The position numbers and the translations under genes are program-made. A DNA stretch of 64,000 bases from Amycolatopsis acidiphila (GTDB lineage: Bacteria > Actinomycetota > Actinomycetes > Mycobacteriales > Pseudonocardiaceae), in contig NZ_CP090063.1 in the NCBI RefSeq assembly GCF_021391495.1, forward strand, positions 5,580,001 to 5,644,000, written 5' to 3'. The notes below the pieces were generated by a model. That model saw nothing but the letters and a program-made list of their open reading frames with translations. It was not told where the DNA came from and did not search any database. This document shows positions 17,767 to 38,525 of this stretch, in pieces. The stretch's first letter is position 1; each line of letters starts with the position of its first letter.

Positions 17767-18918
17767 CTACTTGGAACTCGTCACGCCGCCTCCGGAGCGT
17801 CGGCCGTCGGGTGGGGCAAGGCCTTCAGGCAGCCCCGAGGGGATGTGCCGTCCGATGGCGACATGCTCGAAGAGCCCGATGCCGACCGCGCCATCGTCCC
17901 GAACCGCGCGGCTCAGCTGCTGGACGTGCATGTTCTCCTTGAGTGACGGGTCGAGATCGGCGAGCACCCACCGGTCCACGCCGACGACCTCGCCGCCGTG
18001 GTCGGCTCCATGCCGCCATTTCGGGTGGTAGTAGCCCAGCCCCTGCATCTGGAACAGCCCGCGGGGTTCGATGTCGATCCGCCGATCGAGCAGCCCCCGC
18101 GGACCGACAGTCAGGTCGACCCTCGCGGGGCGGCGGGTCCCGGCGAGGTAGTCGATGTCGAACTGGAACGTGTCACTGCGCGTGATCGTCGCCTCGTTGC
18201 CGTAGGCCGGGTCGTCCGGACCAAGGAATGGCAGCGCTGCCGCTGTGCGTGCCTCTCCGCACCCGTCAGGCGTCTCGTTCACCGCCACCACCAGGCACTC
18301 GTCGGGAAAGCGCAGCAGGGTCCACGCGAAGTAGATAGCCGAATGCTGTTCACCCATCTGGCTTTCGGCGACGGTTCCGGTGGTGCGGCTTCCCCACGAG
18401 CGGTCCCGGAACCCCCACCACTGGTCGCGCGTGATGTCGAAGGTCTCCCCGTCGAGGGTGAGGCTGCCCGACCACTCGCCGAACTGAACGGTGCGGGTGC
18501 GCTCGGAGATGAGCACACCCGCGGCCTCCCGCCGCATCCGGCTGTCCTCGATGCACTGGCTGACCGCTGTGAACGTCAGGTCGGCGGCCATACCGTCGTG
18601 TTCGTCGAGAACGACCCGCAGGACGCGCATCGGTTCCACCACGTCGACCCGCAGTGGGCCCACGGCGGTGTCCCGGTCGCGTGTCATCCGGCCGGAGGCG
18701 AAGACCGACTGCTGCGTTCCGTTCCGCGAGACACTGATCGCGGCGTCCACGATCCCGCGGTTCGGGTGCACGCTCAGTCCGAAGCCGAGCTGAGTGGTCA
18801 GCCCCTTGTCGTGCATGACGAGCCAGTGCCGTTCGTAGCGTCCGAGGTCGCTGGACAAGAGTTCGGCCGCGGGAACGGCCGTCTGATGTATGGGGTAGTC
18901 GTCCCACTTGGTGAGCAT
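17767..18918 (-). CDS. Lipocalin-like (AttH/hydroxyneurosporene synthase-type) protein
   Basis: A 383-residue protein with no signal peptide or membrane helix, rich in beta-type sequence. Near the middle TRDQWWGFRDRSWGSR, followed later by YFAWTLLRFPDE, resembles the conserved core of actinobacterial AttH/CrtC-like double-lipocalin proteins that sit in lipid, terpenoid and steroid catabolic loci. The family binds or modifies hydrophobic molecules; several are hydratases or cyclases, and many have no known reaction. ATG at 18918 has AGGAG 6 bases upstream. It is the last gene of a minus-strand run behind a kinase. The family call is by motif resemblance only. Confidence 0.55.
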   Translation of the reverse strand: MLTKWDDYPIHQTAVPAAELLSSDLGRYERHWLVMHDKGLTTQLGFGLSVHPNRGIVDAAISVSRNGTQQSVFASGRMTRDRDTAVGPLRVDVVEPMRVLRVVLDEHDGMAADLTFTAVSQCIEDSRMRREAAGVLISERTRTVQFGEWSGSLTLDGETFDITRDQWWGFRDRSWGSRTTGTVAESQMGEQHSAIYFAWTLLRFPDECLVVAVNETPDGCGEARTAAALPFLGPDDPAYGNEATITRSDTFQFDIDYLAGTRRPARVDLTVGPRGLLDRRIDIEPRGLFQMQGLGYYHPKWRHGADHGGEVVGVDRWVLADLDPSLKENMHVQQLSRAVRDDGAVGIGLFEHVAIGRHIPSGLPEGLAPPDGRRSGGGVTSSK

Positions 18919-18946
18919 GCAACTCCTGTTCGGTGTCGGGGTGCCG

Positions 18947-19999
18947 TCAAACGAAGGACAGGACGTCGTGGTCGATCGCGTGCTGAGCGCCACGGCTGAG
19001 CAATGAGGCGAACATGTCGAAGCCGCGGCTGGTCGGCCTGACGTAGGCCATGGCAGGGACCATGGCGAGCAGCACCGAGCCGCTGAGCCGCCGGTGCTCC
19101 TGCCAAGCGGTGTCCACGCTCCAGCCGGTCACTCCTCGCTCGGCCAATGCGGCCACGTGCGCCTCGACCAGCCTCCGCTCGGTGCTCCGCCGTACTTCCG
19201 GTGGCAGCGCGGAGCCGATCAGGAACGAAGGATCCCAGGCCGGGGTGGTCCAGGCCAGCGTCTGCCAGTCGACCAGCCAGGCGCCGGTGCCGCTCCACAG
19301 CAGGTTGTCCAGCCGGAGGTCCTGGTGGACCAGCGTCCGGGGGCCGATGATCCCCGCGGCCCAGTCGACGCATACCGCGCCGAACCGCTCTACGACCTCT
19401 CGTTGCCGGCTGTCGAGCAAGTCGCCGACGAGGTCCTTGTGCCGCGTCCATGACCGGTCGTAGCGCTCGGCGAGCCCGTCGATGTGATCCGCGGTCCGGT
19501 TGTAGAAGCGTGCGGCTCCGCCGACTGCGCGCTCGTCGTTCCAGAAGGGTGCCTGGAGCCTGGCCAGCTGGCCGATGGCGGAGGTGACCTCCTCCGCGGT
19601 GCCGTCTCGCAACTGGTCCAGGGGCTGGCAGCTGTCAGAAAGGTCCTCCAGGACCAGCACCGGGTCGCTCCCGGGCAGCTCGATGGCGCCGAGATACGCG
19701 GGGGTGCGGACGTCGAGCCGTGGCAGCAGCTCCTGGTAGAAGACGCACTCCCGGGCATAGGCACCGATCCGGGCGGCGGTCGCGGCCGACCGCTCGTCCC
19801 GCGACGGCAGCTTCACGAACAGGCTCGGCGGTCCTGGCGTTCCCCGGTACGTGGGGACAACGCGCACGCTCTCAGCCAGCTGTCCGGCCCCAAGGGGCAT
19901 CACCTCGCAGCGAACCACTTCCGCATCCGTGGCCAGAACGCCGGACGCGCGCAGAGCCGCGGTGAGCCCGTCCGGGCTGACAGTCGCCGTGTTCGTCAT
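18947..19999 (-). CDS. Small-molecule kinase (APH/ecdysteroid-kinase-like), paralogue 1
   Basis: A 350-residue protein kinase-like phosphotransferase. LFVKLPSRDE holds the ATP-binding Lys, LVLEDL the hinge, LVHQDLRLDNLLW the catalytic loop (Asp and Asn) and LVDWQTLAW the metal-binding Asp. These are the marks of the aminoglycoside phosphotransferase/EcKinase clan, which phosphorylates hydroxyl groups of small molecules such as sugars, choline, steroids or antibiotics. A homologue with the same layout (VHHDFRVDNLLF, VLDWQTVGW) lies at 30484. Its ATG overlaps the stop of the alcohol dehydrogenase (19996-19999), so it is in the P450 operon. An alcohol made in this pathway is the likely acceptor; resistance to a drug is less likely in this setting. 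Confidence 0.85.
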   Translation of the reverse strand: MTNTATVSPDGLTAALRASGVLATDAEVVRCEVMPLGAGQLAESVRVVPTYRGTPGPPSLFVKLPSRDERSAATAARIGAYARECVFYQELLPRLDVRTPAYLGAIELPGSDPVLVLEDLSDSCQPLDQLRDGTAEEVTSAIGQLARLQAPFWNDERAVGGAARFYNRTADHIDGLAERYDRSWTRHKDLVGDLLDSRQREVVERFGAVCVDWAAGIIGPRTLVHQDLRLDNLLWSGTGAWLVDWQTLAWTTPAWDPSFLIGSALPPEVRRSTERRLVEAHVAALAERGVTGWSVDTAWQEHRRLSGSVLLAMVPAMAYVRPTSRGFDMFASLLSRGAQHAIDHDVLSFV

Positions 20000-21066
20000 G
20001 GCGTGACCATCACTCGGACCGCGTCAGCCGCGAGCTGACGGTCCACGGCCTCGTTGATCCGGTCGAGCGGCACCACGTCGGAGACCAGTGCCGTCAGGTC
20101 GAGCCGCCCCGAACGCCACAGCTCGACCAACCTGGGCACCTCGAAGCGCATGTCGCTGGAGCCGTAGAACGACCCGACGAGCCGCTTCTCCTCGTGGAAA
20201 AGCTCCAGCACGCTGAAGCTCACCAGATCGTCGGCCTTGCCGGCGCCCACGACGACGACGCGGCCTCCTCTCCGCACCGCATCCCAGGCACCGCGAACGG
20301 TCGCGGACCGTCCGACGGCGTCGATGGCGACATCGAACCCGACACCGCCGGGCGGGGCGACGTGATCCTCCGGTGCGTGGGCCGACGCGGCTCCCAGTTC
20401 GAGCGCTCGCTTGCGGCGGCCGGGCTGCGGATCGATCGCCACAACGGTTGATCCGCCCGCGATGACAGCGCCCTGCACGGCGCTGAGTCCAACCGCGCCG
20501 CACCCGACAACCAGCACGGTCTCGCCGGGCTGGACCCGCGCGGAGTTGAGGGCGGCTCCGACCCCGGTCGGCACCGCGCACCCCAGCAGCGCTGCCTGTT
20601 CGAAGGGCAGGTCTTCAGGGATCGGGATGACGCCGGCCGCGGGCACCACGGCGTGCTGGGCGAAGGTCGCAGTACCCATTCCCTGCCGCACCGGCCGGTC
20701 GCCCACCCGCAGGTCCGCGCCTGCCTCGAGTTCGCCGGCCCGTTTACGGCCGGAGCAGATGAAGGTCTGCCCGCGCACGCAGAAGTAGCATCGGCCGCAC
20801 GGGGGCACCCAGCTGAGCACTACGCGCTGGCCCACTTCGATTTCGCCGGCTTCCGGCCCGATTTCGACGACTTCACCGGCTCCCTCGTGCCCGAGGATGA
20901 CCGGTGTCGCCTGGCCGAAGTGCCCGCGCGACAGCGAGATGTCGGTTTGGCACACGCCTGCGGCGTGGATCCGTACCAGAACTTCGCCGGCGCCGGGCCG
21001 GCGAAGCACGACGTCGTCCTCGATGGAGAAGGGCGCGTTCGGCTCCCAGGTCACGGCTGCTCTCAT
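19996..21066 (-). CDS. Zinc-dependent alcohol dehydrogenase (MDR family)
   Basis: A 356-residue medium-chain dehydrogenase. Catalytic zinc ligands are in GVCQTDISL (Cys38), GHEGAGEV (His, Glu) and the Cys of GCAVPTG. Structural-zinc cysteines are spread over CGRCYFCVRGQTFIC. The NAD motif VVGCGAVGLSAVQGA precedes AIDPQ, whose Asp favours NAD. It oxidises primary or secondary alcohols to carbonyls. It lies between an aldehyde dehydrogenase (40 bp upstream) and a kinase (4 bp overlap), so it probably oxidises the P450 product for the aldehyde dehydrogenase. The start at 21066 is chosen for its GAGGAG ribosome-binding site; GTG at 21072 is possible. Confidence 0.93.
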   Translation of the reverse strand: MRAAVTWEPNAPFSIEDDVVLRRPGAGEVLVRIHAAGVCQTDISLSRGHFGQATPVILGHEGAGEVVEIGPEAGEIEVGQRVVLSWVPPCGRCYFCVRGQTFICSGRKRAGELEAGADLRVGDRPVRQGMGTATFAQHAVVPAAGVIPIPEDLPFEQAALLGCAVPTGVGAALNSARVQPGETVLVVGCGAVGLSAVQGAVIAGGSTVVAIDPQPGRRKRALELGAASAHAPEDHVAPPGGVGFDVAIDAVGRSATVRGAWDAVRRGGRVVVVGAGKADDLVSFSVLELFHEEKRLVGSFYGSSDMRFEVPRLVELWRSGRLDLTALVSDVVPLDRINEAVDRQLAADAVRVMVTP

Positions 21067-21106
21067 GTCCACTCCTCGAGACGGTGATGTGCGGTTTTGC
21101 AGCGGG

Positions 21107-22573
21107 CTAGGTCAGCTCGGGATCTCCCAGGATCGCCTTCACCTCGAGGTACTCTTCCAGTGCGAAGGCGCCCATCTCGCGCCCGAGCCCGGACATCTTG
21201 TAGCCGCCGAACGGGGACACCGGCAGCGACGGCGTACGCACCCCGTTGACGCGTACCTGGCCGGCACGGACACGACGCGCGAGGGCGGCGGCCCGCGCGG
21301 GGTCCCCGGACCACACCTCGGCCGACAGGCCGTACTCCGTGTCGTTCGCGATGCGTACCGCGTCGTCCTCTCCGCGGTGGCCCAGGACGACCAGCACCGG
21401 CCCGAAGATCTCCTCGCGCACCACCGGAGCGGTCTCGGGGAGGTCCGTGACGATGGCAGGCCGAACGAAGTAGCCCCGCTCGTGCTCGTCCGCGAGCCCG
21501 CCAGTAACGACCCGGCCGTCGCGTCTGGCGCCGTCGAGGTAGCCGAGGACCTTGTCGCGCTGTGCGTGCGACGCAAGTGGTCCCATGGTCGTCGCCTCGT
21601 CGAGCGGGTCGCCCAGCACGTAGGCGTCCGCGGCCGCGGCCGCGATGTTCACCGCCACGGCACGGAGTTCCTCCGGCACGATGAGCCGGGTCGGCGCATT
21701 GCACTTCTGACCGGCGTTGACGAAGCAGTTCTTCACTGTGGTGCGCACGGCGGTATCCAGGTCGGCATCGTCGAGGAGTACAGCGGGCGACTTGCCGCCG
21801 AGCTCCAGCGTCGCCCGCACGATTCGGCCGCCTGCGACAGCACCGATGTGCCTGCCGATGGTGAGGGAGCCGGTGAAGGAGACGACGTCGTAGTCGCCAC
21901 TCTGCACCAGCGCCTCGCCGGTCGTGGCCCCCCGGCCGGTGACGATGTTGACGACCCCGGCGGGAATGCCTGCCTCGCCGCACAATGCGGCGACGAACAG
22001 CGCGTTCAGCGGGGTCAGTTCCGCGGGCTTGACGACTACCGTGCAACCGGCGGCGAGCGCAGGGGCGAGCTTGGCGACTATCTGGTGCACCGGGAAGTTC
22101 CAGGGGGTGATCGCCAGGACGACCCCCGAGGGCTCGCGCACTATGGAGCTGCCCGAAGCATCGCGGCCGTCCCACCGATAGGCGCGGGCGAGGTCAGCAG
22201 TGCTGCGCAACACCCTGGTCGGCAGGTCCACCTGCACCGCGCGGGCCTCGCGCAGTGGCATGCCGATCTCCCGCGCCGCGAGGGCCGCGAGTTGGTCACC
22301 GTGCTGCTCGAACGCGTCGGCCAGCGCGTCGAGGTGGGCCGCCCGCTGACCCGCTGAGGTCCGCGACCAGTCGTCGAAGGCGCGGCGTGCCGCCGCGGTG
22401 GCCTTCGCCGCGGTCTCCGCCGAGCAGTCGGTGACCGAGCCGATGCGCTCCTCGGTCGCGGGGTTGATCACGTCGAGCCGCGGCTCGTCGTCCGGCACGA
22501 TCCACTCACCGCCGATGTACACGGCGTCGGCCGGGAGGTCGATTGCCGCGCGCGCTGCTGATGTGATGGTCAT
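21107..22573 (-). CDS. NAD(P)-dependent aldehyde dehydrogenase
   Basis: A 488-residue aldehyde dehydrogenase. It shows ITPWNFPVHQI and VVKPAELTPLN in the cofactor domain, SFTGSLTIG, the general base in LELGGKSP, and the catalytic Cys in FVNAGQKCNAPTR. EEIFGPVL and PFGGYKMSGLGREMG close the pattern. It oxidises an aldehyde to a carboxylate, here presumably the product of the neighbouring alcohol dehydrogenase; the acid could then go to the ADP-forming acyl-CoA ligase at 31679. ATG at 22573 overlaps the P450 stop, so the genes are translationally coupled. Confidence 0.94.
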   Translation of the reverse strand: MTITSAARAAIDLPADAVYIGGEWIVPDDEPRLDVINPATEERIGSVTDCSAETAAKATAAARRAFDDWSRTSAGQRAAHLDALADAFEQHGDQLAALAAREIGMPLREARAVQVDLPTRVLRSTADLARAYRWDGRDASGSSIVREPSGVVLAITPWNFPVHQIVAKLAPALAAGCTVVVKPAELTPLNALFVAALCGEAGIPAGVVNIVTGRGATTGEALVQSGDYDVVSFTGSLTIGRHIGAVAGGRIVRATLELGGKSPAVLLDDADLDTAVRTTVKNCFVNAGQKCNAPTRLIVPEELRAVAVNIAAAAADAYVLGDPLDEATTMGPLASHAQRDKVLGYLDGARRDGRVVTGGLADEHERGYFVRPAIVTDLPETAPVVREEIFGPVLVVLGHRGEDDAVRIANDTEYGLSAEVWSGDPARAAALARRVRAGQVRVNGVRTPSLPVSPFGGYKMSGLGREMGAFALEEYLEVKAILGDPELT

Positions 22574-23802
22574 CAGCCCACCCGGTGTGCGGGAACGACC
22601 CGAACCGGGAGCTTGCTCCAACCGCGGAAGATGTTGTGGCGGACCCGCTCGGGTTCTCCGACGACGTCGAACCGGAGGCCCCGCTCCCTCGTCTGCCGGT
22701 AGAACTCCCGTACCTCCGCGCGGGCCAGGTGGGCGCCGAGGCAGAAGTGGATCCCCCAGCCGAAGGTCAGGTGGTCGTTCGGTGTCCGGTCGATCCGGAA
22801 CTCCCCCGGGTTGTCGAACACCTCAGGGTCCCGGTTTGCCGCTGCGAACCAGAGCACGACCTTGTCGCCGGGGGAGATGGTCTTGTCGCCGATGATGACC
22901 TGCTTGGTTGCGGTCCGGCGCATCCCGGCCACCGGACTCACGTAGCGGAACATCTCCTCGACCGCCGGCCCGAGCAGCGCCTCGTCGCGCAGGATGCGAG
23001 CCCATGAGTCGGGGGTGTCGTGCAAGGCCAGCGTCGCACCGGACACGAGGTGCCTTGTCGTCTCGTTGCCCGCCGCGACCAGCACGATGTAATAGGCCGC
23101 CAGCTCCTCCCACGTCAATGGCCTGCCGTCCTTCTGGCCTGTGGCCAAGACGCTGATCAGGTCGGTGGTGGGGTGCGCGCGACGCCACTCGGTCAGGTCT
23201 GCGAAATAGGTCATGAGCTCCTCGCGCGCCAGCGCGAGCGTTGCCTTGTCCACCATGTCGTCCGGGTCGGAGCTGGTCAACCGGTTCGTCCAATCGACCA
23301 TCCGCGGCGCGTCCTCGCCGGGGACACCGAGGACCTGGGCCAGCACGAGCATCGGAAGCCGGGCGGAGACCACCTCGACCATGTCGAACTCGCCGCGGTC
23401 CTCTGCTTCGTCGAGCAGGAGCCGCACCGAGGAGGAGATGACCTCCTGCCACTGCTGCACCTTGATCGCACGAAGGTGCGGTACGGCGATCCTGCGCAGC
23501 TTGGCGTGCTCGGGGTCATCCATGTTGTGCAGGCTGGCCAGTGCGCCCTCAACCTTGCGATCGACGATCTGCGTCCCCTCCGCCGACGACAGGCCCTCGA
23601 CATCCGATGCCGCCTGCTTCACGTCGGCATGCCGGGTCAGGGCCCAGAAGCCCGGCCCGCGCTCGGATGGCGCGTTCCAGTACACCGGCTGGTGCTTTCG
23701 GAGGTCGTCGAAGATCTTCATCTCCTGGTTGGCCGCCACTGCCGACAGGTCCATCAAATCGATGTCACTGCCTGCTCCAGGTGCGCTGTAGGACAGAGTC
23801 AT
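22573..23802 (-). CDS. Cytochrome P450
   Basis: A 409-residue soluble bacterial P450. The I-helix oxygen-activation motif is AAGNETTRH, the ExxR motif is EEMFRYVSP, and the heme-binding loop is FGWGIHFCLGAHLAR with the axial Cys near residue 354. The overall text resembles terpenoid/steroid/fatty-acid hydroxylases of the CYP125/142/124 type in actinobacteria, but the substrate cannot be assigned. Electrons should come from the ferredoxin (25534) and reductase (25731) encoded divergently. The start at 23802 is chosen over an upstream one because it follows a GGAGA motif. It heads the minus-strand operon P450, aldehyde dehydrogenase, alcohol dehydrogenase, kinase, lipocalin-like. Confidence 0.94.
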   Translation of the reverse strand: MTLSYSAPGAGSDIDLMDLSAVAANQEMKIFDDLRKHQPVYWNAPSERGPGFWALTRHADVKQAASDVEGLSSAEGTQIVDRKVEGALASLHNMDDPEHAKLRRIAVPHLRAIKVQQWQEVISSSVRLLLDEAEDRGEFDMVEVVSARLPMLVLAQVLGVPGEDAPRMVDWTNRLTSSDPDDMVDKATLALAREELMTYFADLTEWRRAHPTTDLISVLATGQKDGRPLTWEELAAYYIVLVAAGNETTRHLVSGATLALHDTPDSWARILRDEALLGPAVEEMFRYVSPVAGMRRTATKQVIIGDKTISPGDKVVLWFAAANRDPEVFDNPGEFRIDRTPNDHLTFGWGIHFCLGAHLARAEVREFYRQTRERGLRFDVVGEPERVRHNIFRGWSKLPVRVVPAHRVG

Positions 23803-23883
23803 GGCATCTCCGGCATCAGAGGTCGGGCACGGCGAGGTCTTCCCTCGACCGTAAGGTCCTGCTAAATTCGTGTCAACCATTAA

Positions 23884-23895
23884 AAAGGTCAACCA
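23884..23895. promoter_or_regulatory. GGT-CA-ACC operator candidate between P450 and dikinase
   Basis: AAAGGTCAACCA lies in the 108-bp divergent promoter region, with a second GTCAACCA 18 bases to its left. The same core with one change (AAAGGTCTACC) precedes the FadR-type regulator at 27009, and GGTCCAACC lies at 31581-31590. FadR-family proteins bind GGT-N2/3-ACC palindromes, so this is probably the binding site of the cluster's regulator. Confidence 0.5.
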
Positions 23896-23910
23896 AAGAG
23901 GTTGTAGGCG

Positions 23911-25728
23911 ATGCGATCAGGTTCGACGATCTATGCGTTTGACCACGACCACGGGGTCCCCGCCCGCGAACTCGTGGATCTCCTGGGCGGCAAGGGAGCA
24001 GGTCTCGCCGAGATGACCTCGGCCCTCGGCGCCCCGGTGCCGCCCGGGTTCACCATCCCGGTGCCGGTGTGCCGCGAATTCGCCGAGGCCGGGTGGCCGG
24101 GACAGCTCGACATGGCCCTCGCCACCCACGTCGACCGGCTGGGCAGGCTCATGGGCAGGCGCCTGGGAGACCCCGCCGACCCCCTTCTGGTCGCGGTGCG
24201 CAGCGGAGCACCGGCCTCGATGCCGGGAATGCTCGACACGGTGCTCAACCTGGGACTGAACAACGAAACCGTGCACGGGCTTGCCGAGCGCTCCGCCGAC
24301 CGGTGGTTCGCCTGGGACAGCTACCGCCGGTTCGTGACGATGTTCGCCACGACGGTCATGGGGGTGACGCCTGCGGCGCTCGAGCTCGAACCGGCCGACG
24401 ATACGCCCGAGGCCCTGCGCGCCCACGTGAATGACCTTCTCGAGGCCGTGCGGCGCGAGGCAGGCAGGCCGATTCCGCAAGATCCGGTCGTGCAGCTCCG
24501 GGAAGCGATCGAGGCGGTCTTCCGTTCCTGGAACAGCCACCGTGCGCGGGCGTATCGCGAGAAGGAACGCCTCGACCACCGGGTGGGCACCGCAGTCAAC
24601 GTCCAGGCCATGGTCTTCGGAAACCGCGGCCCCGACTCGGGTACCGGCGTGGTCTTCACCCGCAATCCCGCAACCGGGGAACCGCACCCGTACGGCGACT
24701 ACCTTCCGCGCGCCCAGGGCGAGGACGTCGTCGCGGGCACGACCCGCACGATGCCCATTGCCCACTTGGCCGAGCACCAGCCCGAGGTGTACCAGCAGCT
24801 CGTGGCGCTCCTGCGCCGCCTCGAGGTCCACTACCGCGACGTGTGCGACGTCGAGTTCACCGTGGAGGAAGGCCAGCTCTGGCTGCTGCAGACCCGGATC
24901 GGCAAGCGGGGTGCGGTCGCCGCCGTCCGGATCGCCGTCGACCTGGTCGACGACCCCGACATCCGGCTGACCACGCAGGAGGCCTGCGAGCGCGTACCGC
25001 GGGAGCTGCGCGAGCACGCACGGCAGGAGATCCTGGCCCGAGTCAGCCCCCAGGGGCAGGACGAACGGCTCCTGGCCATCGGTCTCGGCGCGTCACCCGG
25101 CAGGGTCAGCGGCAGAGTGGTGCTGACCAGCGACGAAGCGGCGGACGCCGAGGACGACGTCATCCTGGTGCGCAGCGAAACCAGTCCCGAGGACGTCGCC
25201 GGGATGGCCGCTTCCGCAGGCATCCTCACTACGCACGGCGGGCTGGTGAGCCACGCTGCCGTGGTCGCGCGCGGCTGGCACCTGCCCGCTGTGGTCGGCG
25301 CCCAGGAACTCACGCTGGACTCGGGTGTTGTCCGTTCCACCCGCGGGTTGGCCGCGCGGGCAGGCGACGTCATCACCATCGATGGCAGCACCGGGCACGT
25401 GTGGCAGGGCGCCGTGGAGCCGCCTGCCAGTCGACAGCTCGATCACGCGATAGGCGATGAGCTCCCTCAGCTGCTCCGGCTCGAGAGCTGGACGGCACCG
25501 CGAACCACTCCTAGCACTCCGGGAGACAAGACCATGAAGATCGCCGTCGACCGCGACAAGTGCACCGCTCTCGGGATCTGCGAGTCGCTCGCGCCCGAGT
25601 ACTTCGAGGTCAACGAGGAGGGCGAACTCGCGATGCTGCGTGAGGACGTGCCTGCCGATCGCCGCGCATTGGTCGAGGGCGCCGTTGCCGGCTGCCCGAC
25701 GGCTGCCCTGCGCCTGTTGCAGGCGTGA
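23911..25728 (+). CDS. PPDK/PEP-synthase-like phosphotransferase without PEP domain, running into a ferredoxin
   Basis: A 605-residue frame. Residues 1 to about 360 are the ATP-binding domain of pyruvate phosphate dikinase type (LLGGKGAGLAEM, VAVRSGAPASMPGMLDTVLN, GVVFTRNPATGE, LLQTRIGKR). Residues about 385-520 are the swivelling domain with TTHGGLVSHAAVVARG; His448 corresponds to the phosphohistidine. The C-terminal PEP/pyruvate TIM barrel of real PPDK (about 870 residues) is absent. The frame continues without a stop into the ferredoxin at 25534. The enzyme should therefore pass a phosphoryl group from ATP via His448 to another acceptor, as in phenylphosphate synthase, where the parts are also split. 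Whether the fused ferredoxin is made is unclear because it has its own start. Confidence 0.82.
   Translation: MRSGSTIYAFDHDHGVPARELVDLLGGKGAGLAEMTSALGAPVPPGFTIPVPVCREFAEAGWPGQLDMALATHVDRLGRLMGRRLGDPADPLLVAVRSGAPASMPGMLDTVLNLGLNNETVHGLAERSADRWFAWDSYRRFVTMFATTVMGVTPAALELEPADDTPEALRAHVNDLLEAVRREAGRPIPQDPVVQLREAIEAVFRSWNSHRARAYREKERLDHRVGTAVNVQAMVFGNRGPDSGTGVVFTRNPATGEPHPYGDYLPRAQGEDVVAGTTRTMPIAHLAEHQPEVYQQLVALLRRLEVHYRDVCDVEFTVEEGQLWLLQTRIGKRGAVAAVRIAVDLVDDPDIRLTTQEACERVPRELREHARQEILARVSPQGQDERLLAIGLGASPGRVSGRVVLTSDEAADAEDDVILVRSETSPEDVAGMAASAGILTTHGGLVSHAAVVARGWHLPAVVGAQELTLDSGVVRSTRGLAARAGDVITIDGSTGHVWQGAVEPPASRQLDHAIGDELPQLLRLESWTAPRTTPSTPGDKTMKIAVDRDKCTALGICESLAPEYFEVNEEGELAMLREDVPADRRALVEGAVAGCPTAALRLLQA
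25534..25728 (+). CDS. 3Fe-4S ferredoxin (P450 redox partner)
   Basis: A 64-residue ferredoxin, MKIAVDRDKCTALGICESLA and on to AGCPTAALRLLQ, with Cys-x5-Cys and a late CysPro: the three-cysteine pattern of actinobacterial [3Fe-4S] ferredoxins that serve P450s. Its ATG has GGGAGAC 5 bases upstream, so independent translation is likely, although the preceding dikinase frame reads straight into it. The reductase follows after 2 bases. It should carry electrons to the P450 at 22573. Confidence 0.9.
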   Translation: MKIAVDRDKCTALGICESLAPEYFEVNEEGELAMLREDVPADRRALVEGAVAGCPTAALRLLQA

Positions 25729-25730
25729 CG

Positions 25731-26963: not shown

Positions 26964-27008
26964 AGCCCCGCGTCATCCTTACGCCGCCGCTTGATTCTAT
27001 TGACCCTG

Positions 27009-27022
27009 AAAGGTCTACCTTT
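27009..27022. promoter_or_regulatory. AAAGGT-CT-ACCTTT palindrome upstream of the FadR-type regulator
   Basis: A perfect 6-base inverted repeat around a 2-base centre, 128 bp before the regulator's start and about 45 bp after the reductase stop. Its GGT-N2-ACC core is typical of FadR-family operators and matches the site at 23884. Autoregulation is inferred. Confidence 0.55.
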
Positions 27023-27150
27023 GGGCAGATCGAGGTTTCGAGTACGATGGGGCGTCGGACCAGCTGGCCACCATCTGGGACCGAGTCGATGTCGTCGACC
27101 GCCACGTGGTTCACCGAGACTTCGTGCTGAGTCTGTCGAGGGAGGAAGAG

Positions 27151-27936
27151 ATGACGGTCGAGAGCCCTGCCGCGGCCCACGCTCGAGGGGCCGCCGTGAT
27201 CGGACCCATCCATGCGCCCAAGGCGTCGGAGATCTTCGCGGATCTCCTGCGGCAGAAGATCCTGGACGGCGAGTTTCCCGAAGGGCAGCCCTTGCCTTCC
27301 GAGCGGAGCCTGGGTGAGCAGAGCAGGTTGAGCCGTGCCGCCGTACGGGAGGCGATCGGGATCCTGAAACAGCAGGGCCTGATCGTGAGCAAGCCCGGCC
27401 GCAACGGCGGTTCGATCGTCACCAGGCCGACCTCGCAGGAGCTCGTCGCTTCGCTGCAGACCTATGTGCGGTCCCAAGGCTGGGGCGCGGACAACCGAAC
27501 CCTGCTGGAGATGCGCGAGATCATCGAGCCCTGGTGCGCGGCGTTCGCCGCCAGTCACCGTACGGACGAGGACCTGCAGCGGATCCGGCAACGTCTCGAC
27601 CAAGCCTCGGCCTCGATCGATCGCGTGGAGGAATACGTGTCGGCCGGACTGAGCTGGCATGCAGCAGTCGCCGACGCCGGCCACAACGTCCTCCTGTCGG
27701 CCTTCATGAGTGCCGCGAGCACCCCGTTTCTTTCCGCAGCCGACCACGGCCGCTATGACTCGCTCAAGGCGCGGAAGTCGACGCTGAAGACGCACAAGGC
27801 CATCACGGCGGCGATCTCCGATCGCGATCCGCAACGCGCCTTCGATTTGATGGCTCGCCACGTCCAGGGGTCGGAGGCACCCTTGCTCGAGAACCTTGCG
27901 ACGACCCTCGAGAACGACACGGCAGCTACCGGCTGA
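27151..27936 (+). CDS. GntR-family regulator, FadR (FCD) subfamily
   Basis: A 261-residue regulator. The winged helix is at residues about 25-85 (LPSERSLGEQSRLSRAAVREAIGILKQQGLI in the first two-thirds), followed by an all-helical FCD ligand domain containing the metal/effector residues EMREIIEPWCAAFAA and SWHAAVADAGHN. FadR proteins bind organic acids or acyl-CoA and control their breakdown genes. Its place in the centre of the P450/dikinase/kinase cluster, and the shared GGT-ACC sites at three promoters, suggest it controls the whole locus. ATG at 27151 follows GAGGAAGAG. Confidence 0.92.
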   Translation: MTVESPAAAHARGAAVIGPIHAPKASEIFADLLRQKILDGEFPEGQPLPSERSLGEQSRLSRAAVREAIGILKQQGLIVSKPGRNGGSIVTRPTSQELVASLQTYVRSQGWGADNRTLLEMREIIEPWCAAFAASHRTDEDLQRIRQRLDQASASIDRVEEYVSAGLSWHAAVADAGHNVLLSAFMSAASTPFLSAADHGRYDSLKARKSTLKTHKAITAAISDRDPQRAFDLMARHVQGSEAPLLENLATTLENDTAATG

Positions 27937-27938
27937 GC

Positions 27939-27970
27939 CGCACCGGGTGGTCGGGAAACCACCCGGTGCG
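27939..27970. terminator. Bidirectional hairpin terminator
   Basis: CGCACCGGGTGGT and ACCACCCGGTGCG form a perfect 13-bp stem with a six-base loop between the stops of two converging genes (regulator and 793-residue protein). There is no strong T-tract, as is common in high-GC actinobacteria. Confidence 0.75.
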
Positions 27971-28002
27971 CCTGCATGGACGGGACTGAGCGCGGACAGC
28001 AC

Positions 28003-30384
28003 TTACTCGTCGTGCTCGGAGCGTCGGCGTCCGAGTGTGGCCAGCAGGTCCTCGTGTAGCTCCATCCAGATGTCGTGGTAGGACTCGGACATCGGCTTGG
28101 CGAGGGCATCGGTATCACCCGCCTCGAAGCGCGCCAGAGCGGTTTCGAGACGGGTCCGGTAGCGGCCATAGCGCTCCTGTGCTCCGGCTGCCTTGTCAAG
28201 CAGGGCACTGACCTCAGCGTGAACACGCCGGAGTTCAACTGGAATCCCGGAGCCCTCTTGCAGCTGCCATGCGCTGGTGAGCGACTTGAAGGCACGGTTC
28301 GGCGCGAGGAAGGCCTGATAAACCTCGGCGATCTCGGTTCGCTCGGCAGCTGAGACCACGTGCGAAGTCAGCAACGCCAACCGCGCCTTGCCGGCAGGCG
28401 TCAGCGACGCACCGGTCACCTTGCCGGTGCGCCGCTTGACGAAGCCCGCCTCTTCCGCCGCCGTCACGACGGAGCCGACCTGCTCGACCGGGAGACCGGC
28501 ACTGGCGACGAGTTGCTCAGGCCGCGCGAAACCGCGTGCGCGCAGGGCCAGCAGGACGTCAAACTCGCCCGGCTGGATGGACGGCATCGTGCGACTGGTC
28601 TCTGGGACGTCGTTGGCCCAGGAACCGGTCAGAAACAGGCGCGGGATCATTTCGGTGGCCACGCCGCTGATGATCGTGTCGTAGGCGGCCTCGACGACCG
28701 GGTGCAGCTCACCGAAGCCATGCTCGCGCACGAGTTCCTCGTGCATCCCCGCCGCGCGCGCGATCGGCAACACGAAACCCGCGGCGTAGGTGTACGCGCC
28801 TGCCAGCACCTTCTCGCGCTTGCTCATCGCGGCGATGCGCCGATAGAGCGTTTCGGACTTGGCTTCACACTCCTCGCGCAGCGCTGCCATGTCCTGCAGT
28901 GTCAGCGTGCGAAGGTGGTCCATCGGAGTGTCGAACTTCTCCCGCGTGTACACCGCCACACCGGAAACGTGGGGCAGGTAGTTGCTCGGTTCGGTGAACA
29001 GCGTCGACAGGTCGAACACCCTTGGTGAAAGGCGACCGTCGCCCGGGAAGAACATCGCGATGGTGACCACGTACGGCAGCCCTTCTGTCGTGTCGCTCCA
29101 CGGGAAGGCCGGCTCGTTGATGAAGAGGTCGCGAACGATGACGAACCCGCCGTCCCCGGTCGGATAGGGCCCCGAATCGCCCAAGCCGAGCCTGTTGTCG
29201 AAGTGGAGCAGGAATCCCATGAGCTCCACCGCGCCGTTGAACCGCTGGAACGCCGAGCGGTCCCGCTCGGGTGCCAGCGAGATGCGGTCTGTCTCGAACC
29301 GGTCGATCCAGGACGGGTCGAGGACCGGGGCGGCGTAGCCGCGCATCGAGGACAACATCGGACCGGAGCCCCAGAGGCCCTTGTACAGCCGACGAGTCGT
29401 CGTCATGGTGCGGGAGATCCGCTCGACCTGGTAGTCGAAGTCGTGCAAGCCGAGCTCGAGGGTGATGCCCCTGCCGAAACTGGAGGCCGTGGCGATCGCC
29501 CACAGGTGCAGCATGTTGATCTTCGTTCCGATCTCGCGCTTCGCGCGGGCACCAATGTCGAGGACGCCGTCGACGCCGACACGGTCCTCGATGGCACGCA
29601 TCCACTCCGGGTGCATGAACCAGGAGTTCATGATGCCGAGGGCCTCGTACTCCTGCCGTGGAATGAGCCCGGACTCCCCCTCCGTGGCTCGAGCGGCGAG
29701 TGCATCCCATTCGTTCCAGGCCAGGTAGTGAATCGCGTCGTTGACCTCCTCGATCGTGAGGTCACGGTGCATCGACGCATCATCCAGGTCGAGGACCGAC
29801 GTGCGTTGCCGCGCGAACATGATCTCGTGCCCCTCGAGCCCGTGCGGCACTTCCCCGCCGAACTTCTCGAGCAGGAGCTGGATCTGGGCGAGCTGCTCCG
29901 GCGACATGGCGACGCCGTCTGCGGCCATCGGGGAGTCGTCGACCGGAGCTCCGGGTTCGACGCTGACCGAGCCATGCGGCCGCGACGAGACGTCCATTCG
30001 CAGGCGGACGCCGTCAGCAGGGACGATCTCGCCGCGAGCGGTCCGCACGCCCTTCTCGAACGCGACCGACATGATGCACGGGATGCCGTATTCGCGGCTG
30101 AGGATGCCCAGGTGACTCTCCGGAGCACCCTGCAGGGTCAGCACGCCCCGTACCCCGGCGTTGAGCGCCATGGTCAGGAACGTGGTGGCGCCACCCCGCG
30201 CGATGACGATGACGTCACTGACATCCTCGCCACTCTCGATGAAGGCGATCACGTCGTCCGGGGTGTCGAGCCACTTGGCCCGGCCCTCCACCGCCTCCGC
30301 GCTCTCGTAGACGTTGACCCCGACACCGACCTGCTCGTACGCGTCCGGCGGCGTGCGTGTTCCGGTGTCCGCGACGTGCGACAT
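28003..30384 (-). CDS. Swivelling phosphohistidine domain protein with C-terminal winged helix
   Basis: A 793-residue protein. Residues about 55-130 look like the PEP-utilising 'swivelling' domain: DVIVIARGG, then GVLTLQGAPESHLGILSREYG with His91 at the phosphohistidine position. Residues about 160-590 form a large soluble region I cannot place. Residues about 607-673 (EFDVLLALRARGFARPEQLV, then GFVKRRTGKVTGASLTPAGK) read as a MarR-like winged helix. No ATP-grasp domain is present. With the dikinase-like protein at 23911, which has an ATP site, it could act as a partner or phosphoryl acceptor enzyme. It might instead be a regulator switched by phosphorylation. ATG at 30384 has GGAGGT 4 bases upstream. 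Confidence 0.6.
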   Translation of the reverse strand: MSHVADTGTRTPPDAYEQVGVGVNVYESAEAVEGRAKWLDTPDDVIAFIESGEDVSDVIVIARGGATTFLTMALNAGVRGVLTLQGAPESHLGILSREYGIPCIMSVAFEKGVRTARGEIVPADGVRLRMDVSSRPHGSVSVEPGAPVDDSPMAADGVAMSPEQLAQIQLLLEKFGGEVPHGLEGHEIMFARQRTSVLDLDDASMHRDLTIEEVNDAIHYLAWNEWDALAARATEGESGLIPRQEYEALGIMNSWFMHPEWMRAIEDRVGVDGVLDIGARAKREIGTKINMLHLWAIATASSFGRGITLELGLHDFDYQVERISRTMTTTRRLYKGLWGSGPMLSSMRGYAAPVLDPSWIDRFETDRISLAPERDRSAFQRFNGAVELMGFLLHFDNRLGLGDSGPYPTGDGGFVIVRDLFINEPAFPWSDTTEGLPYVVTIAMFFPGDGRLSPRVFDLSTLFTEPSNYLPHVSGVAVYTREKFDTPMDHLRTLTLQDMAALREECEAKSETLYRRIAAMSKREKVLAGAYTYAAGFVLPIARAAGMHEELVREHGFGELHPVVEAAYDTIISGVATEMIPRLFLTGSWANDVPETSRTMPSIQPGEFDVLLALRARGFARPEQLVASAGLPVEQVGSVVTAAEEAGFVKRRTGKVTGASLTPAGKARLALLTSHVVSAAERTEIAEVYQAFLAPNRAFKSLTSAWQLQEGSGIPVELRRVHAEVSALLDKAAGAQERYGRYRTRLETALARFEAGDTDALAKPMSESYHDIWMELHEDLLATLGRRRSEHDE

Positions 30385-30483
30385 GTGACCTCCGTTGGTC
30401 ATTTCAGGTGAGCTGGGTACGGACCTCCGGCGGGTACCGGAGGCGGGTCGTGCGGGACAGGTACAAGGTTTGAGCGGTTCGTC

Positions 30484-31548
30484 TCACTCCGTCAGCAGGT
30501 CAAGGGCATCGAGGTCGAGGGCCATCCGAGCTCCCGAGGCGAGAAGGCGGCGGTACATGGCCTCCATCCGGCCGTTGCTCTTCACCGACGCGATCGGCGG
30601 CACCAGCATCAGCAGAACCGCGAACGCAGCCTGCCGGTACGCCTCCCACGCCTCATCGAATGTCCAGGAGACGCCATGCTCCCCGAGTTCGTCGACGTGG
30701 CGACGGATCTCCTCCCGTTCTGCCACGCGCCGCTGAGCCGGCCCCACCGAGGTGCCAAACAGGTAGGCGACGTCGAACATCACCTGGCCCCACCCGACCG
30801 TCTGCCAGTCCAGCACGACCAGGTCGTCGCCTGCGAAGAGCAGGTTGTCCACCCGGAAGTCGTGATGCACCAGCGAACGCGGCCCGCCCAGCCGAGACGC
30901 CCACTCGCCCGCGGCTCGAACGAACCGGTCGATGCAACGGCGCTCCTCGGTGGCCAGCGAGCAGGCGATGGACTGTCCGGCCTGAAACCAGGAACGCTCC
31001 ATACGATCGAGGATGTGCGGGATCGGGACTCCCAGCCGCCGGTGCAACCACGGCAGGCCTGCCGTGTCCAGATCCTCCCAGAACGGTGCCTGCAGGAGTA
31101 CCAGCTGCCGGCGAGCGCGCCGGAGCACCGGCAGCGGGAGGTCGGCCAGTTGGTCACCAGTGTGGTACCTCCCCGTCAGATCCTCGAGCAGCAGGATCGG
31201 CGGCCCACCGTCGGCGGCATCCAATGAACCGAAGGACCGCGGTAACCGGATCGAAGACCGTGGCGCGAGTTCGGCGTAGAAACGCACCTCGCGCTCGTAC
31301 GCGCCGAGCGAGGCGGCCGTCGCGGCCGCGGTGGCGTCTAGCGACGGCAGCTTTGCCACCACCGACGCCGGCCCGGACCCGGACGGCGCCCACGAGAGTT
31401 CGAGCCGGAGGGTGTCCGCGAGGGCGCCGTGACCGACGGGCCGGGACATGACGGACACCAGCTCGGCCGCGGCGTCGCATGCTCCCGCCCGTTCGAGAGC
31501 TTGGCGTAGTTCGCCGACATGGGTGAACCGGGCAGTGTCAGCGGGCAC
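30484..31548 (-). CDS. Small-molecule kinase (APH/ecdysteroid-kinase-like), paralogue 2
   Basis: A 354-residue homologue of the kinase at 18947. VVAKLPSLDA holds the ATP-site Lys, LLLEDL the hinge, LVHHDFRVDNLLF the catalytic loop and VVLDWQTVGWG the metal Asp. Both paralogues share LQAPFW and a similar helical tail, so they arose from one ancestor. It lies 99 bp upstream of the 793-residue phosphohistidine protein on the same strand and is divergent from the acyl-CoA ligase. It likely phosphorylates a hydroxyl on an intermediate of the pathway. Two related kinases in one locus suggest two acceptors or sequential phosphorylation. Confidence 0.85.
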   Translation of the reverse strand: MPADTARFTHVGELRQALERAGACDAAAELVSVMSRPVGHGALADTLRLELSWAPSGSGPASVVAKLPSLDATAAATAASLGAYEREVRFYAELAPRSSIRLPRSFGSLDAADGGPPILLLEDLTGRYHTGDQLADLPLPVLRRARRQLVLLQAPFWEDLDTAGLPWLHRRLGVPIPHILDRMERSWFQAGQSIACSLATEERRCIDRFVRAAGEWASRLGGPRSLVHHDFRVDNLLFAGDDLVVLDWQTVGWGQVMFDVAYLFGTSVGPAQRRVAEREEIRRHVDELGEHGVSWTFDEAWEAYRQAAFAVLLMLVPPIASVKSNGRMEAMYRRLLASGARMALDLDALDLLTE

Positions 31549-31579
31549 GTCACCTCCTCGTGACTCAGCTCACAGGTAT

Positions 31580-31603
31580 TTGGTCCAACCTTAAATATGG
31601 TTG
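31580..31603. promoter_or_regulatory. GGT/ACC operator candidate between kinase 2 and acyl-CoA ligase
   Basis: TTGGTCCAACC and, overlapping it, the inverted repeat CAACC-TTAAATAT-GGTTG lie in the 130-bp divergent promoter region. The GGTC-AACC core matches the sites at 23884 and 27009. It is placed to control both flanking genes. Confidence 0.5.
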
Positions 31604-31678
31604 CCCTATTGTGTCAATAACCTTCAGTCCGAATAATGACTTGCTACCGACCCCCATCGCCAGCTTGCGGGAGGACCC

Positions 31679-33808
31679 ATGTCTGCCGACGCCACTGTGA
31701 TCGCCGATCAGCCGCTTGCCGTCGAGAGTCTCGACCGGCTCTTGCGGCCTCGTAAGCTGGCGCTGGTGGGCGCCAGCGACAAGAACCTCTTTTCGCGGCG
31801 CGCCTTCGCACAGCACAAGCGGGTCGGCGGAGACCGCCGCTTGGGCTTGGTGAACCCGCGCAGCCGAACAGTCCACGGCGCGGAAACGGTGGCGAGCTGC
31901 ACGGACCTTCCCGGCGGCATCGACTGCGCGTTCCTCATGACGCCGCAGCGCACCACGGCGGCAGCGCTCGAAGACGCCGCGGCGGCGGGTGCCCGGGCCG
32001 CCGTCATCCTGAGCCAGGGCTGGGCGGAGGAGGGCGCGAGTGGGCTGCGTCGCCAGCAGGAGCTGGTCGCCCAGGCCGAGGAACTCGGGGTTGTCCTTCT
32101 AGGACCCAATCACCTCGGCTTCGCCAATCTCTGGGACGGCGTCGCGGCCTGCGCGCTGGGACTCGACCTGCCCGTCGAACCCGGCTCATTCGCTCTCGTC
32201 TCCCAGAGCGGAGCCGTCGGCTCGTCGATGGTCGGGTATGCCGCTCGACAAGACGTCCGGTTCAGCTTCGTGGTGACCACGGGCAATGAGGCGATGGTGA
32301 CCGTTGCCGATGCCGTTCACTACCTCGTCGACGACGAGCGGACACGGGCTATCGGCATTTTTGCCGAAACGATCCGCAAACCGGCTGTTTTCCGAGCGGC
32401 AGCCGCGCGAGCCGCCGAGCTGGGCAAGGCGCTGGTCATCCTCAAGGCAGGTACCAGCGAGCTGGCCGCTCGAACCGCGGCGGCGCACACCGGAGCGCTG
32501 GTCGGTGACGACCGGGTGATCGACGCCGTCCTCCGGCAGGACGGCGTCATCCGGGTGCGCTCGGTGGAGGATCTGATCTGCACCGGCACCCTCTGTGCCA
32601 GTGTTGGACCGGTCCGCGCCCCTGGTGTCGGGATCCTCTCGGTTTCCGGCGGCGCCTGCGACCTGATCGCGGACCGCGGGGAGGATGTCGGCCTCGTGCT
32701 CCCGTCGCTCTCAGAACAGACCAACGCACGCCTCGCGCAAATCCTGCCGCCGTACGGCCATCCCCAGAACCCTCTCGACGTGACCGGTGGAGCCCTGGCC
32801 GACCCGGAGGTGTGGCGCCAGGGCATAACGGCGATGGCAGCCGAACCCGACATCGGGCTGATCGGCGTGGTCACGTCGCTGCCGACCGCTGGGGAGGAAC
32901 AGCGCGACGACACATTTCACGCCGTCGGTTCCACCTTGGCCACCGTCGGGCTTCCCGGCGCCGTCTTCCCGCAGATCGACCAGGTGCAGTCCGATTACGT
33001 CCGCAAGGTCAAGTCCGAGTCAGGCGTGCACGTGGTGCTCCCGAGTGTGGAGCGTTTCGTCCATGCCGCCGCCGGACTCACCACCTGGTCGAAATGGCTG
33101 AACGCCCACACTGCCCCGCCGGCGCGCACCACGCGGGTCGAACCGGCAGTCCCGGTCATCGGTCCAATGCTCAGTGAGCATGCCGGCCGTGCCCTGTTGC
33201 AGCAGTTCGGCGTGCCACTCATTCCCGCCGAACTGATCACAGACGCGACCGCCGCCGTCGCAGCCGCGGCGCGTTTCGGTGGACCCGTCGCGATGAAGAT
33301 CTGCTCGGCCGAAGTCGCTCATAAGACCGAACTCGGTGGAGTCGAACTCAAGGTCGAGGGCAGCGACGCGGTCGCAGCGGCCTATGAACGCCTGATCACC
33401 AGCGCGTCCGCCGCCGGTGTGGCACTCGAAGGCGTCCTGGTCAGCCCCATGCGTTCGAGTGGGGTCGAGCTGCTGGTCGGCGTCACCGCCGACCCCTCGT
33501 GGGGACAGGTACTCGCGGTCGCATTCGGTGGTGCACTGGTCGAACTGCTCGACGACACCGCCCTACGCGTGCTGCCCGTGGGCCGCGACGACGTCCGATC
33601 AATGTTGGCGGAACTGCGCGGCTACCGGCTGCTGACCGGATTCCGCGGAAGCAAACCGGCCGACATCGACCGGCTGACAGAAGTCATCCTCGCCGTCGCG
33701 GACCTCGCCGTGAGCCTACCGGCCTTCGATTCGGTCGAGATCAACCCGCTGCTCATCGACGGAGAACGGATCGAAGCTCTTGACGTGCTCATCACCTCGA
33801 CGCCATGA
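31679..33808 (+). CDS. ADP-forming acyl-CoA synthetase (fused alpha-beta)
   Basis: A 709-residue NDP-forming acid-CoA ligase. The N-terminal CoA-binding domain starts LALVGASDKNLFSRRAF. The central ligase-CoA domain carries LVSQSGAVGSSM and the phosphohistidine loop AAHTGALVGDD. The C-terminal ATP-grasp domain includes PVAMKICSAEVAHKTELGGV and ESVEINPLL-like text (DSVEINPLLID). It makes acyl-CoA, ADP and phosphate from an acid, ATP and CoA through a His phosphate. It is divergent from kinase 2 and ends the cluster, so it may activate the acid made by the aldehyde dehydrogenase. GGGAGGA precedes the ATG. Confidence 0.92.
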   Translation: MSADATVIADQPLAVESLDRLLRPRKLALVGASDKNLFSRRAFAQHKRVGGDRRLGLVNPRSRTVHGAETVASCTDLPGGIDCAFLMTPQRTTAAALEDAAAAGARAAVILSQGWAEEGASGLRRQQELVAQAEELGVVLLGPNHLGFANLWDGVAACALGLDLPVEPGSFALVSQSGAVGSSMVGYAARQDVRFSFVVTTGNEAMVTVADAVHYLVDDERTRAIGIFAETIRKPAVFRAAAARAAELGKALVILKAGTSELAARTAAAHTGALVGDDRVIDAVLRQDGVIRVRSVEDLICTGTLCASVGPVRAPGVGILSVSGGACDLIADRGEDVGLVLPSLSEQTNARLAQILPPYGHPQNPLDVTGGALADPEVWRQGITAMAAEPDIGLIGVVTSLPTAGEEQRDDTFHAVGSTLATVGLPGAVFPQIDQVQSDYVRKVKSESGVHVVLPSVERFVHAAAGLTTWSKWLNAHTAPPARTTRVEPAVPVIGPMLSEHAGRALLQQFGVPLIPAELITDATAAVAAAARFGGPVAMKICSAEVAHKTELGGVELKVEGSDAVAAAYERLITSASAAGVALEGVLVSPMRSSGVELLVGVTADPSWGQVLAVAFGGALVELLDDTALRVLPVGRDDVRSMLAELRGYRLLTGFRGSKPADIDRLTEVILAVADLAVSLPAFDSVEINPLLIDGERIEALDVLITSTP

Positions 33809-35010: not shown

Positions 35011-35055
35011 CCGTCGGGACGACAGGATTCGAACCTGCGACCCCTTGACCCCCAG
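35011..35055 (-). other. att site, left border: 3' half of tRNA-Pro(GGG)
   Basis: The reverse complement reads CTGGGGGTCAAGGGGTCGCA, then the T arm (GGTTCGAATCC) and the acceptor end CGTCCCGA, ending at 35014. Loop CTGGGGG gives anticodon GGG. The 5' side of the anticodon stem (expected CTTGA) and the D arm are missing, so this is a displaced 3' half. The identical segment at 52783 marks the next border. Identity to the left begins exactly at 35011, so that is one edge of the core. Confidence 0.85.
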
Positions 35056-37273: not shown

Positions 37274-37424
37274 AGCGCGGCCGCGGAAACAGATCCCACC
37301 GGCCGGGTTGCCGCCCTTCACACGATGCGGGCGAGCAGGAACAGCCCGTGGCGAACCGACCAGGGTGCCAGAAGTCGGTGTGGCGGTCGGGGCCGAACAG
37401 CAACGTCCCCTGGACGCCCTCGGC

Positions 37425-37604: not shown

Positions 37605-37619
37605 TTACGTACTGTTGCC

Positions 37620-37725: not shown

Positions 37726-37748
37726 CCGCAGGACTGAGTGGAGGGGTT

Positions 37749-38268: not shown

Positions 38269-38412
38269 CCACCGGAAACAGTTCTACTTGGAAGCCTGCG
38301 CGGGGCGAACCCGTGACTCTGTCACTTCCGGTTCTTTTCGCCACCTTCCGACCGGGCTTGGCCCACTCACCCAGGGAGCGGATCGCAGGAAATCCGCAAC
38401 CCGGCGCATGAG

Positions 38413-38523: not shown

Positions 38524-38525
38524 TG

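Follow-up and report, generated by a model that had tools for sequence, protein, structure and literature searches.

The window analysed here comprises 64,000 nucleotides (positions 5580001-5644000) of the 8.18 Mb single-contig genome of Amycolatopsis acidiphila. Between positions 17767 and 33808 it holds a locus of eleven genes (Table 1), named here by product or first position. In order, they encode a phospholyase homologue, the kinase APH1, an alcohol dehydrogenase (ADH), an aldehyde dehydrogenase (ALDH) and a cytochrome P450 on the minus strand; a short pyruvate phosphate dikinase (PPDK) fused to a ferredoxin, a ferredoxin reductase (FdR) and a GntR regulator on the plus strand; the protein 28003 and the kinase APH2 on the minus strand; and an ADP-forming acyl-CoA ligase on the plus strand. 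The PPDK-ferredoxin and FdR genes overlap by 4 bp, as do those of APH1 and ADH. The families named in an earlier reading made without database searches (the sequence-only reading), namely P450, reductase, ADH, ALDH, ADP-forming ligase and two APH/EcKL kinases, were all recovered by Pfam and motifs. That reading did not identify the key gene, 17767-18993.

The 17767 protein gave no match in the Pfam scan, and it scored 327 bits against NCBIfam NF053593 (cut-off 150), which makes it a full member of the Rv3169 family. Its single sequence matched the 25-phosphosteroid lyase (25-PSL) of PDB entry 9fzn over residues 26-337 (312 residues; E 7.5e-36), and a profile of nine relatives matched PDB 25-PSL with E 1.5e-50. 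Since the 25-PSL match begins at M26, the lyase likely starts there (position 18918), and the 47 bp that its reading frame shares with that of APH1 are probably not a real overlap. The aspartate of the RDRSWG motif (D197) is kept in 33 of 35 aligned sequences, the remainder being one gap and one glutamate in a fragment; asparagine takes its place in PDB entry 9g4c, presumably a catalytic mutant. Both APH/EcKL kinases carry intact HxDxRxDN and DWQT motifs. The lyase and the adjoining kinase would form a kinase/phospholyase pair, a known logic for the ATP-dependent dehydration of tertiary alcohols. As described in two reports, Sterolibacterium 25-hydroxysteroid kinase (25-HSK) phosphorylates a tertiary C25 alcohol with an equilibrium constant of 0.34, attributed to the tertiary phosphoester being a high-energy compound slightly above ATP, and a lyase, then termed unknown or putative, eliminates the phosphate to give an alkene (PMC8449060, PMC11061730). 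The window shares with this system a kinase and a lyase of the same lyase family, and methyl oxidation to an acyl-CoA would be expected next. It differs in having a P450 where the sterol system has molybdenum hydroxylases, and in its additional dikinase. APH1 and APH2 show the APH/EcKL domain and the active-site motifs, and any kinship with the APH-like 25-HSK is putative. With this overlooked lyase, phosphate elimination becomes a likely step.

The 23911 protein had been described as PPDK-like without a phosphoenolpyruvate (PEP) domain, and the Pfam scan bore this out, finding PPDK_N and a swivel domain. A PEP/pyruvate-binding domain (PEP-utilizers_C) was found by that scan in neither 23911 nor 28003. 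The score of 23911 against NF004531 was 466.7 bits (cut-off 456), pyruvate phosphate dikinase being its best-scoring assignment. The ATP-site residues E315, Q327 and R329 and the swivel histidine H448 are invariant in 27/27 aligned relatives, and the swivel histidine was found in 36/36 short-PPDK homologues with sequence at that position. An ATP-grasp domain with a His448 swivel and no PEP domain is the architecture of VadK (Rv1127c). In its report, VadK is described as autophosphorylating His422 and as more soluble when co-expressed with Rv1126c, and the M. tuberculosis genome as having no gene for the missing pyruvate/PEP-binding domain (PMC13400623). VadK is a proposed regulator of the methylcitrate cycle and has no known small-molecule acceptor. 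The window shares with VadK a short PPDK and the conserved histidine. VadK has a small partner gene, Rv1126c, next to it, whereas 28003 joins its partner-like winged helix to another swivel and an acceptor-like domain, and the likeness of this winged helix to Rv1126c is one of position.

The ferredoxin, previously listed as a separate gene, is present as the C-terminal 64 residues of 23911. The fusion recurs in 8 of the 119 other homologues listed and, therefore, a sequencing artefact is unlikely. Ferredoxin is a separate gene in R. opacus B4 and a separate match in Gordonia. The fusion would tie the P450 to the dikinase. Among other short PPDKs, P0172 (789 aa) carries a natural fusion to a tyrosine-type phosphatase, and those of L053, L055, L058 and L067 are about 830-850 aa long. 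Of these four, the L058 and L067 proteins were scanned, and their C-terminal stretch (about 300 aa) matched a PEP domain weakly at best (L067, E 4e-5).

The sequence-only reading took 28003 for a second phosphohistidine-domain protein; its PEP-utilizer domain was found, and a MarR-like third domain is added here. His97 of the swivel is invariant in 35/35 A1 sequences and in 59/59 swivels. The middle domain spans about 430 aa (about residues 165-600) with strongly conserved polar blocks, and its profile had no match at E <= 10 among PDB sequences. Outside the swivel and winged helix, Foldseek gave at most weak, scattered matches, with the VIA-align rows taken up by those two modules. The winged helix has a fold match to MarR proteins. 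Pseudonocardia homologues (about 590 aa) keep the swivel and middle domain without it. 28003 and its homologues carry the swivel at the N-terminus, the CreH-like proteins of related loci at the C-terminus. By hhalign, the 28003 middle domain and the acceptor domains of these CreH-like proteins (not CreH itself) matched with a probability of 0.04%, compared to 97.7% for the swivels. P0002 (1383 aa), from a Solirubrobacteraceae metagenome-assembled genome (MAG), was considered as a PPDK-28003 fusion and rejected, as it is a tandem swivel-acceptor-swivel-acceptor-winged helix protein.

An order-wide scan matched the 28003 profile in 74 of 397 genomes, and the best 30 loci were examined. Of these, 26 were winged-helix genes without the middle domain, and a short PPDK lay within 1.5 kb of the stand-alone gene in 22/26. 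Reminiscent of the vadK locus, 6/26 genomes have an MmgE/PrpD-family gene within 20 kb of the winged-helix gene, and five of the six also hold the PPDK pair. The middle domain itself is rare (6/396 genomes across the phylum; 21/301 in the family of the Gordonia genome). Thirty-nine middle-domain loci were compared after duplicates and short loci were dropped, and neighbours were counted within 10 kb. A swivel was present in all 39, a winged helix in 32, a short PPDK in 31, a P450 in 13, a tyrosine-type phosphatase in 12, a biotin carboxylase in 10, an APH kinase in 7 and a CreH-like protein in 4. The genes for swivel, middle domain, winged helix and PPDK follow directly on one another in L053-L055, L058, L075, L077, L078 and L081. 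These arrangements make it very probable that 23911 and 28003 are parts of a single multi-subunit dikinase whose build differs from that of phenylphosphate synthase, CreHI and HpeHI. The co-occurrence across actinobacteria anticipated by the sequence-only reading was seen for the 23911 and 28003 homologues, together with P450, and in part for the kinases (APH in 7/10 loci of the window's type).

A core lyase profile made from the five nearest sequences placed a firm lyase homologue within 10 kb in 16 of the 39 loci, 10 of which lack APH by profile; the window's own lyase, 10.9 kb away, falls outside this limit. With a wider profile (A6), which includes L022, L059 and L060 proteins, the count was 24/39. 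The 8 extra loci (L015, L054, L057, L078, L079, L081, L082 and L083) hold remote relatives, and those of L054, L078 and L081 were missed by the genome-wide lyase search. The lyase searches covered 22 chosen genomes or records, a non-random sample, and found 0-10 homologues per genome with the wider profile, so about one or fewer of the 39 would be expected by chance. The counted loci were found by 28003 homology and are mutually related, their lyase/dikinase pairings are thus not independent events, and L020, L057 and L059 sit in the profile that found them.

Compared to HpeHI, CreHI and PpsAB, the window shares an ATP-grasp subunit, a subunit with a histidine swivel and a substrate domain, and a catabolic use. 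CreHI works beside a P450, which is part of the Cre pathway. His97 of 28003 corresponds to the conserved phosphocarrier histidine on the acceptor subunit of these systems. In contrast, 23911 is PPDK-type with its own swivel His448, whereas their ATP-grasp subunit is PEP-synthase-type without a swivel. The 28003 swivel is N-terminal, whereas theirs is C-terminal after the substrate domain, the middle domain has no profile match to CreH-like acceptors, and the winged helix and ferredoxin fusion are extra. An RPH-like fold marks the substrate domain of these systems; for 28003, the fold search was taken up by the swivel. The analogy with phenylphosphate synthase drawn in the sequence-only reading holds for mechanism, but direct kinship is rejected on architecture (the PPDK-type 23911, the N-terminal swivel and the hhalign result). 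Rifampin phosphotransferase shares the swivel fold and three-site dikinase logic, but it is a single chain with another substrate domain and an antibiotic substrate.

Several cluster types were seen among the relatives. Ten loci, called window-type here, occur in Gordonia (3), the R. opacus plasmid pROB02, Kribbia, Nocardioides, Pseudonocardia, Rhodococcoides, one MAG and the window. Eight were found by 28003 homology and one via a plasmid search for 28003, the last being the window; none was picked for its P450. Besides 28003 homologues they have a P450 in 10, a phosphatase in 8, and a lyase, APH kinase and PPDK in 7 each. A P450 in 10/10 is more than chance. By the core profile, a lyase is present in 7/7 window-type loci with APH kinases (window included) and in 0/3 without. 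The Nocardioides locus additionally has acyl-CoA dehydrogenases (ACADs), a thiolase, a CoA-transferase and an HMG-CoA-lyase-like gene. Its cluster codes for a CreH-like dikinase subunit (L014, 17473-19194) in addition to the 28003-type protein. In the Rhodococcoides genome PPDK_N occurs at three places, all PPDK-type in appearance, so CreH-like subunits may also draw phosphate from short PPDKs.

Ten carboxylase-type loci (L059, L080 and L084-L091) contain two or three tandem swivel-acceptor paralogues, a winged helix, a PPDK and a biotin carboxylase, with a thiolase where the stretch reaches. A firm lyase homologue is present in 10/10, and four of these lyases scored 354-404 bits against NF053593 (cut-off 150). 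The APH profile had no match in the ten loci; BLAST shows an APH-like gene in L091. An ALDH/ligase type without a firm lyase comprises L058, which also has microcompartment genes, and L077-L079. On the Methylibium PM1 plasmid, acceptor, swivel and winged helix adjoin 2-hydroxyisobutyryl-CoA mutase genes, one PPDK adjoins microcompartment genes, a second PPDK and a phosphatase lie near a Rieske oxygenase, and two remote lyase relatives score 46-47 bits. The tert-butyl alcohol hydroxylase genes of Methylibium PM1 are listed in PMC4517660, and we take them to be those of this record. Lastly, in both L060 and L022 a CreH-like subunit directly adjoins a remote lyase relative, which scores 20.9 bits and 45 bits, respectively. 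The Methylibium and L060 relatives are DUF7064/DUF7065 types, under the family cut-off. Such a relative (DUF7064/DUF7065) stands with a HAD hydrolase beside microcompartment genes in L092 (8059-13592) and L058 (26894-30585). Among these microcompartment loci a short PPDK is present in Methylibium PM1, and R. oxybenzonivorans has a similar gene set.

We consider it moderately probable that the locus is a catabolic island in which the dikinase phosphorylates an alcohol, the lyase eliminates the phosphate to give an alkene, and P450, ADH, ALDH and ligase complete the breakdown. What was observed are protein families and motifs, the make-up of the domains, fused genes and patterns of co-occurrence; the existence of a complex, the sequence of steps, the relay and the substrate are inferred. 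ATP would phosphorylate His448 of the PPDK-type swivel in 23911, and the phosphoryl group would pass to His97 of 28003, or else the ATP site would load His97 directly in the manner of HpeHI. The relay is favoured because both histidines are conserved, a choice that sequence cannot decide. The middle domain of 28003 would present the hydroxyl of a small molecule, and the winged helix would dock the PPDK-type subunit. The dikinase, the APH kinases or both would make the phosphate ester, from which the 25-PSL-type lyase would form the alkene. The P450, served by its tethered ferredoxin and FdR, together with ADH and ALDH, would turn a methyl group into a carboxylate, and the ADP-forming ligase would make an acyl-CoA for beta-oxidation. 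That the locus phosphorylates an alcohol-type substrate during its breakdown, as the sequence-only reading proposed, is very probable. Phosphorylation followed by elimination is preferred for the dikinase mainly because carboxylase-type loci pair it with a true member of the lyase family and show no APH kinase by profile. PpsAB is likewise a dikinase. Energetics would also speak for a dikinase here and fit elimination, as a tertiary phosphoester lies slightly above ATP and a dikinase consumes two anhydride bonds. The dikinase modules near mutase genes in Methylibium PM1 offer weaker support. Our best guess for the substrate is a branched or terpenoid-like, probably oily, compound with a hindered, probably tertiary, alcohol. 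The nearest solved sequences to the P450 (22573) are CYP125 types (PDB CYP125MRCA, E 1.3e-89).

Several observations weigh against this explanation. Within window-type loci the lyase occurs just where APH kinases do, so it may act for these kinases only. A tyrosine-type phosphatase, an enzyme in keeping with a phosphate tag, was seen in 8/10 window-type loci, although not in the window or L011, and the host has one about 3.4 Mb from the locus. L010, L012 and L074 have dikinase parts, P450 and phosphatase with no lyase match. The lyase relatives of Methylibium, L060 and L022 are remote (20.9-46.7 bits versus the cut-off of 150), no PPDK was found in the L010, L013 and L014 loci (L010 and L013 lie at contig ends), and the CYP125-likeness of the P450 is weak evidence for the substrate.

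Another possible explanation, which we consider rather unlikely, is tagging as in the Cre pathway, which works by phosphate tagging. The dikinase phosphate would be a handle, the P450 would oxidise a methyl group of the phosphorylated substrate, a phosphatase would remove the phosphate later, and the APH kinases and lyase would carry out a separate step. The P450 that accompanies dikinase parts in 10/10 window-type loci, the frequent phosphatase, its natural fusion to a PPDK in P0172 and the way the lyase follows the APH kinases are all consistent with this. However, the window and L011 loci have no phosphatase, 7/10 window-type loci do have a lyase, and the carboxylase-type clusters join lyase and dikinase without APH by profile.

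It is improbable that the short PPDK instead phosphorylates the 28003 swivel to control the winged helix, so that 28003 would be a transcription factor switched by phosphorylation, with its middle domain as the substrate sensor. The MarR-like fold, the stand-alone winged-helix genes beside a short PPDK in 22/26 loci and the description of VadK as a regulatory kinase in its report (PMC13400623) would suit such a relay, but Pseudonocardia homologues keep the swivel and middle domain without the winged helix, one cluster type has two or three swivel/acceptor paralogues, and the locus already has a GntR regulator. Very improbable is that the APH kinases and an ACAD handle a hydroxyacyl-CoA, as in the levulinate and ACAD11 pathways, while the dikinase makes PEP or another central metabolite, since 23911 and 28003 have no PEP/pyruvate-binding domain and lyase homology accounts directly for phosphate elimination, despite the ACAD, enoyl-CoA hydratase and thiolase genes 2-9 kb upstream, the Nocardioides ACADs and weak ACAD-type PDB matches of the kinases.

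Upstream of the cluster lie a thiolase (9137), an enoyl-CoA hydratase, two hydrolases, an ACAD (14747) and a transposase (16103). The top NCBIfam score of the acyl-CoA ligase (31679) was 309 bits, under the equivalog cut-off of 1200. About 1.2 kb past the cluster begins an 11.2 kb direct repeat of 99.96% identity (window 35011-46232 and 52783-64000, the window end), which is a recent duplication or an assembly effect.

Table 1. Genes and modules of the eleven-gene locus, in window positions
Feature	Position	Strand	Evidence
Phospholyase homologue (Rv3169 family / 25-phosphosteroid lyase)	17767..18993	-	NCBIfam NF053593; PDB 9fzn; RDRSWG at 196
APH1, APH/EcKL-fold small-molecule kinase adjoining lyase	18947..19999	-	Pfam EcKL 6e-11, APH 2e-8; HQDLRLDN 225, DWQT 244
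Zn-dependent alcohol dehydrogenase	19996..21072	-	Pfam ADH_N, ADH_zinc_N
Aldehyde dehydrogenase	21107..22621	-	Pfam Aldedh E 1e-153
Cytochrome P450, likely start M31 at 23802	22573..23892	-	Pfam p450 E 2e-22; AGNET, FGWGIHFCLG
Short PPDK (VadK type) fused to C-terminal ferredoxin	23911..25728	+	NF004531; Pfam PPDK_N, PEP-utilizers, Fer4
Ferredoxin domain of 23911, from Met542, C-x5-C spacing	25534..25725	+	Pfam Fer4_13/Fer4_15
Ferredoxin reductase (FdR)	25725..26963	+	Pfam Pyr_redox_2, Reductase_C
GntR/FCD-type regulator	27106..27936	+	Pfam FCD 1e-22, GntR 3e-14
Probable three-module dikinase subunit (28003)	28003..30402	-	His swivel, middle domain, winged helix
28003 swivel module, with the codon of His97 starting at 30114, minus strand	29953..30402	-	S-H in 59/59 swivels
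Middle (acceptor-like) module of 28003	28597..29922	-	RATEGESGLIPRQEYE nearly invariant in 35 A1 sequences
Winged-helix module of 28003, Rv1126c-like by gene position	28006..28593	-	Stand-alone copies near short PPDK
APH2, second APH-fold kinase	30484..31548	-	Pfam APH 3e-16; HHDFRVDN 228, DWQT 247
ADP-forming acyl-CoA ligase	31679..33808	+	Pfam ATP-grasp_5, Succ_CoA_lig, CoA_binding_2

The sequence-only reading knew of no described pathway with these genes. Full-text literature searches found no paper describing the gene set, although it has near relatives in the Cre and Hpe dikinase systems and in 25-HSK/25-PSL. Tentatively, the locus may represent a new class of small-molecule kinase: a phosphohistidine relay of three or four subunits from ATP via the PPDK-type swivel histidine and the carrier swivel histidine to an alcohol bound by a new acceptor domain, the whole assembled by a winged-helix adaptor. 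Two ATP anhydride bonds would pay for high-energy tertiary phosphoesters, from which a 25-PSL-type lyase would make alkenes, and orphan actinobacterial short PPDKs would be the donor half. If true, this would add a multi-subunit, possibly relay-type, branch of small-molecule dikinases with an undescribed acceptor domain, and it offers a testable answer to the role of truncated PPDKs without a PEP site. It would also mean that dehydration by a kinase and a lyase, a feature of anaerobic sterol breakdown, extends to clusters with a P450, and it would provide candidate enzymes for tertiary alcohols that are hard to degrade.

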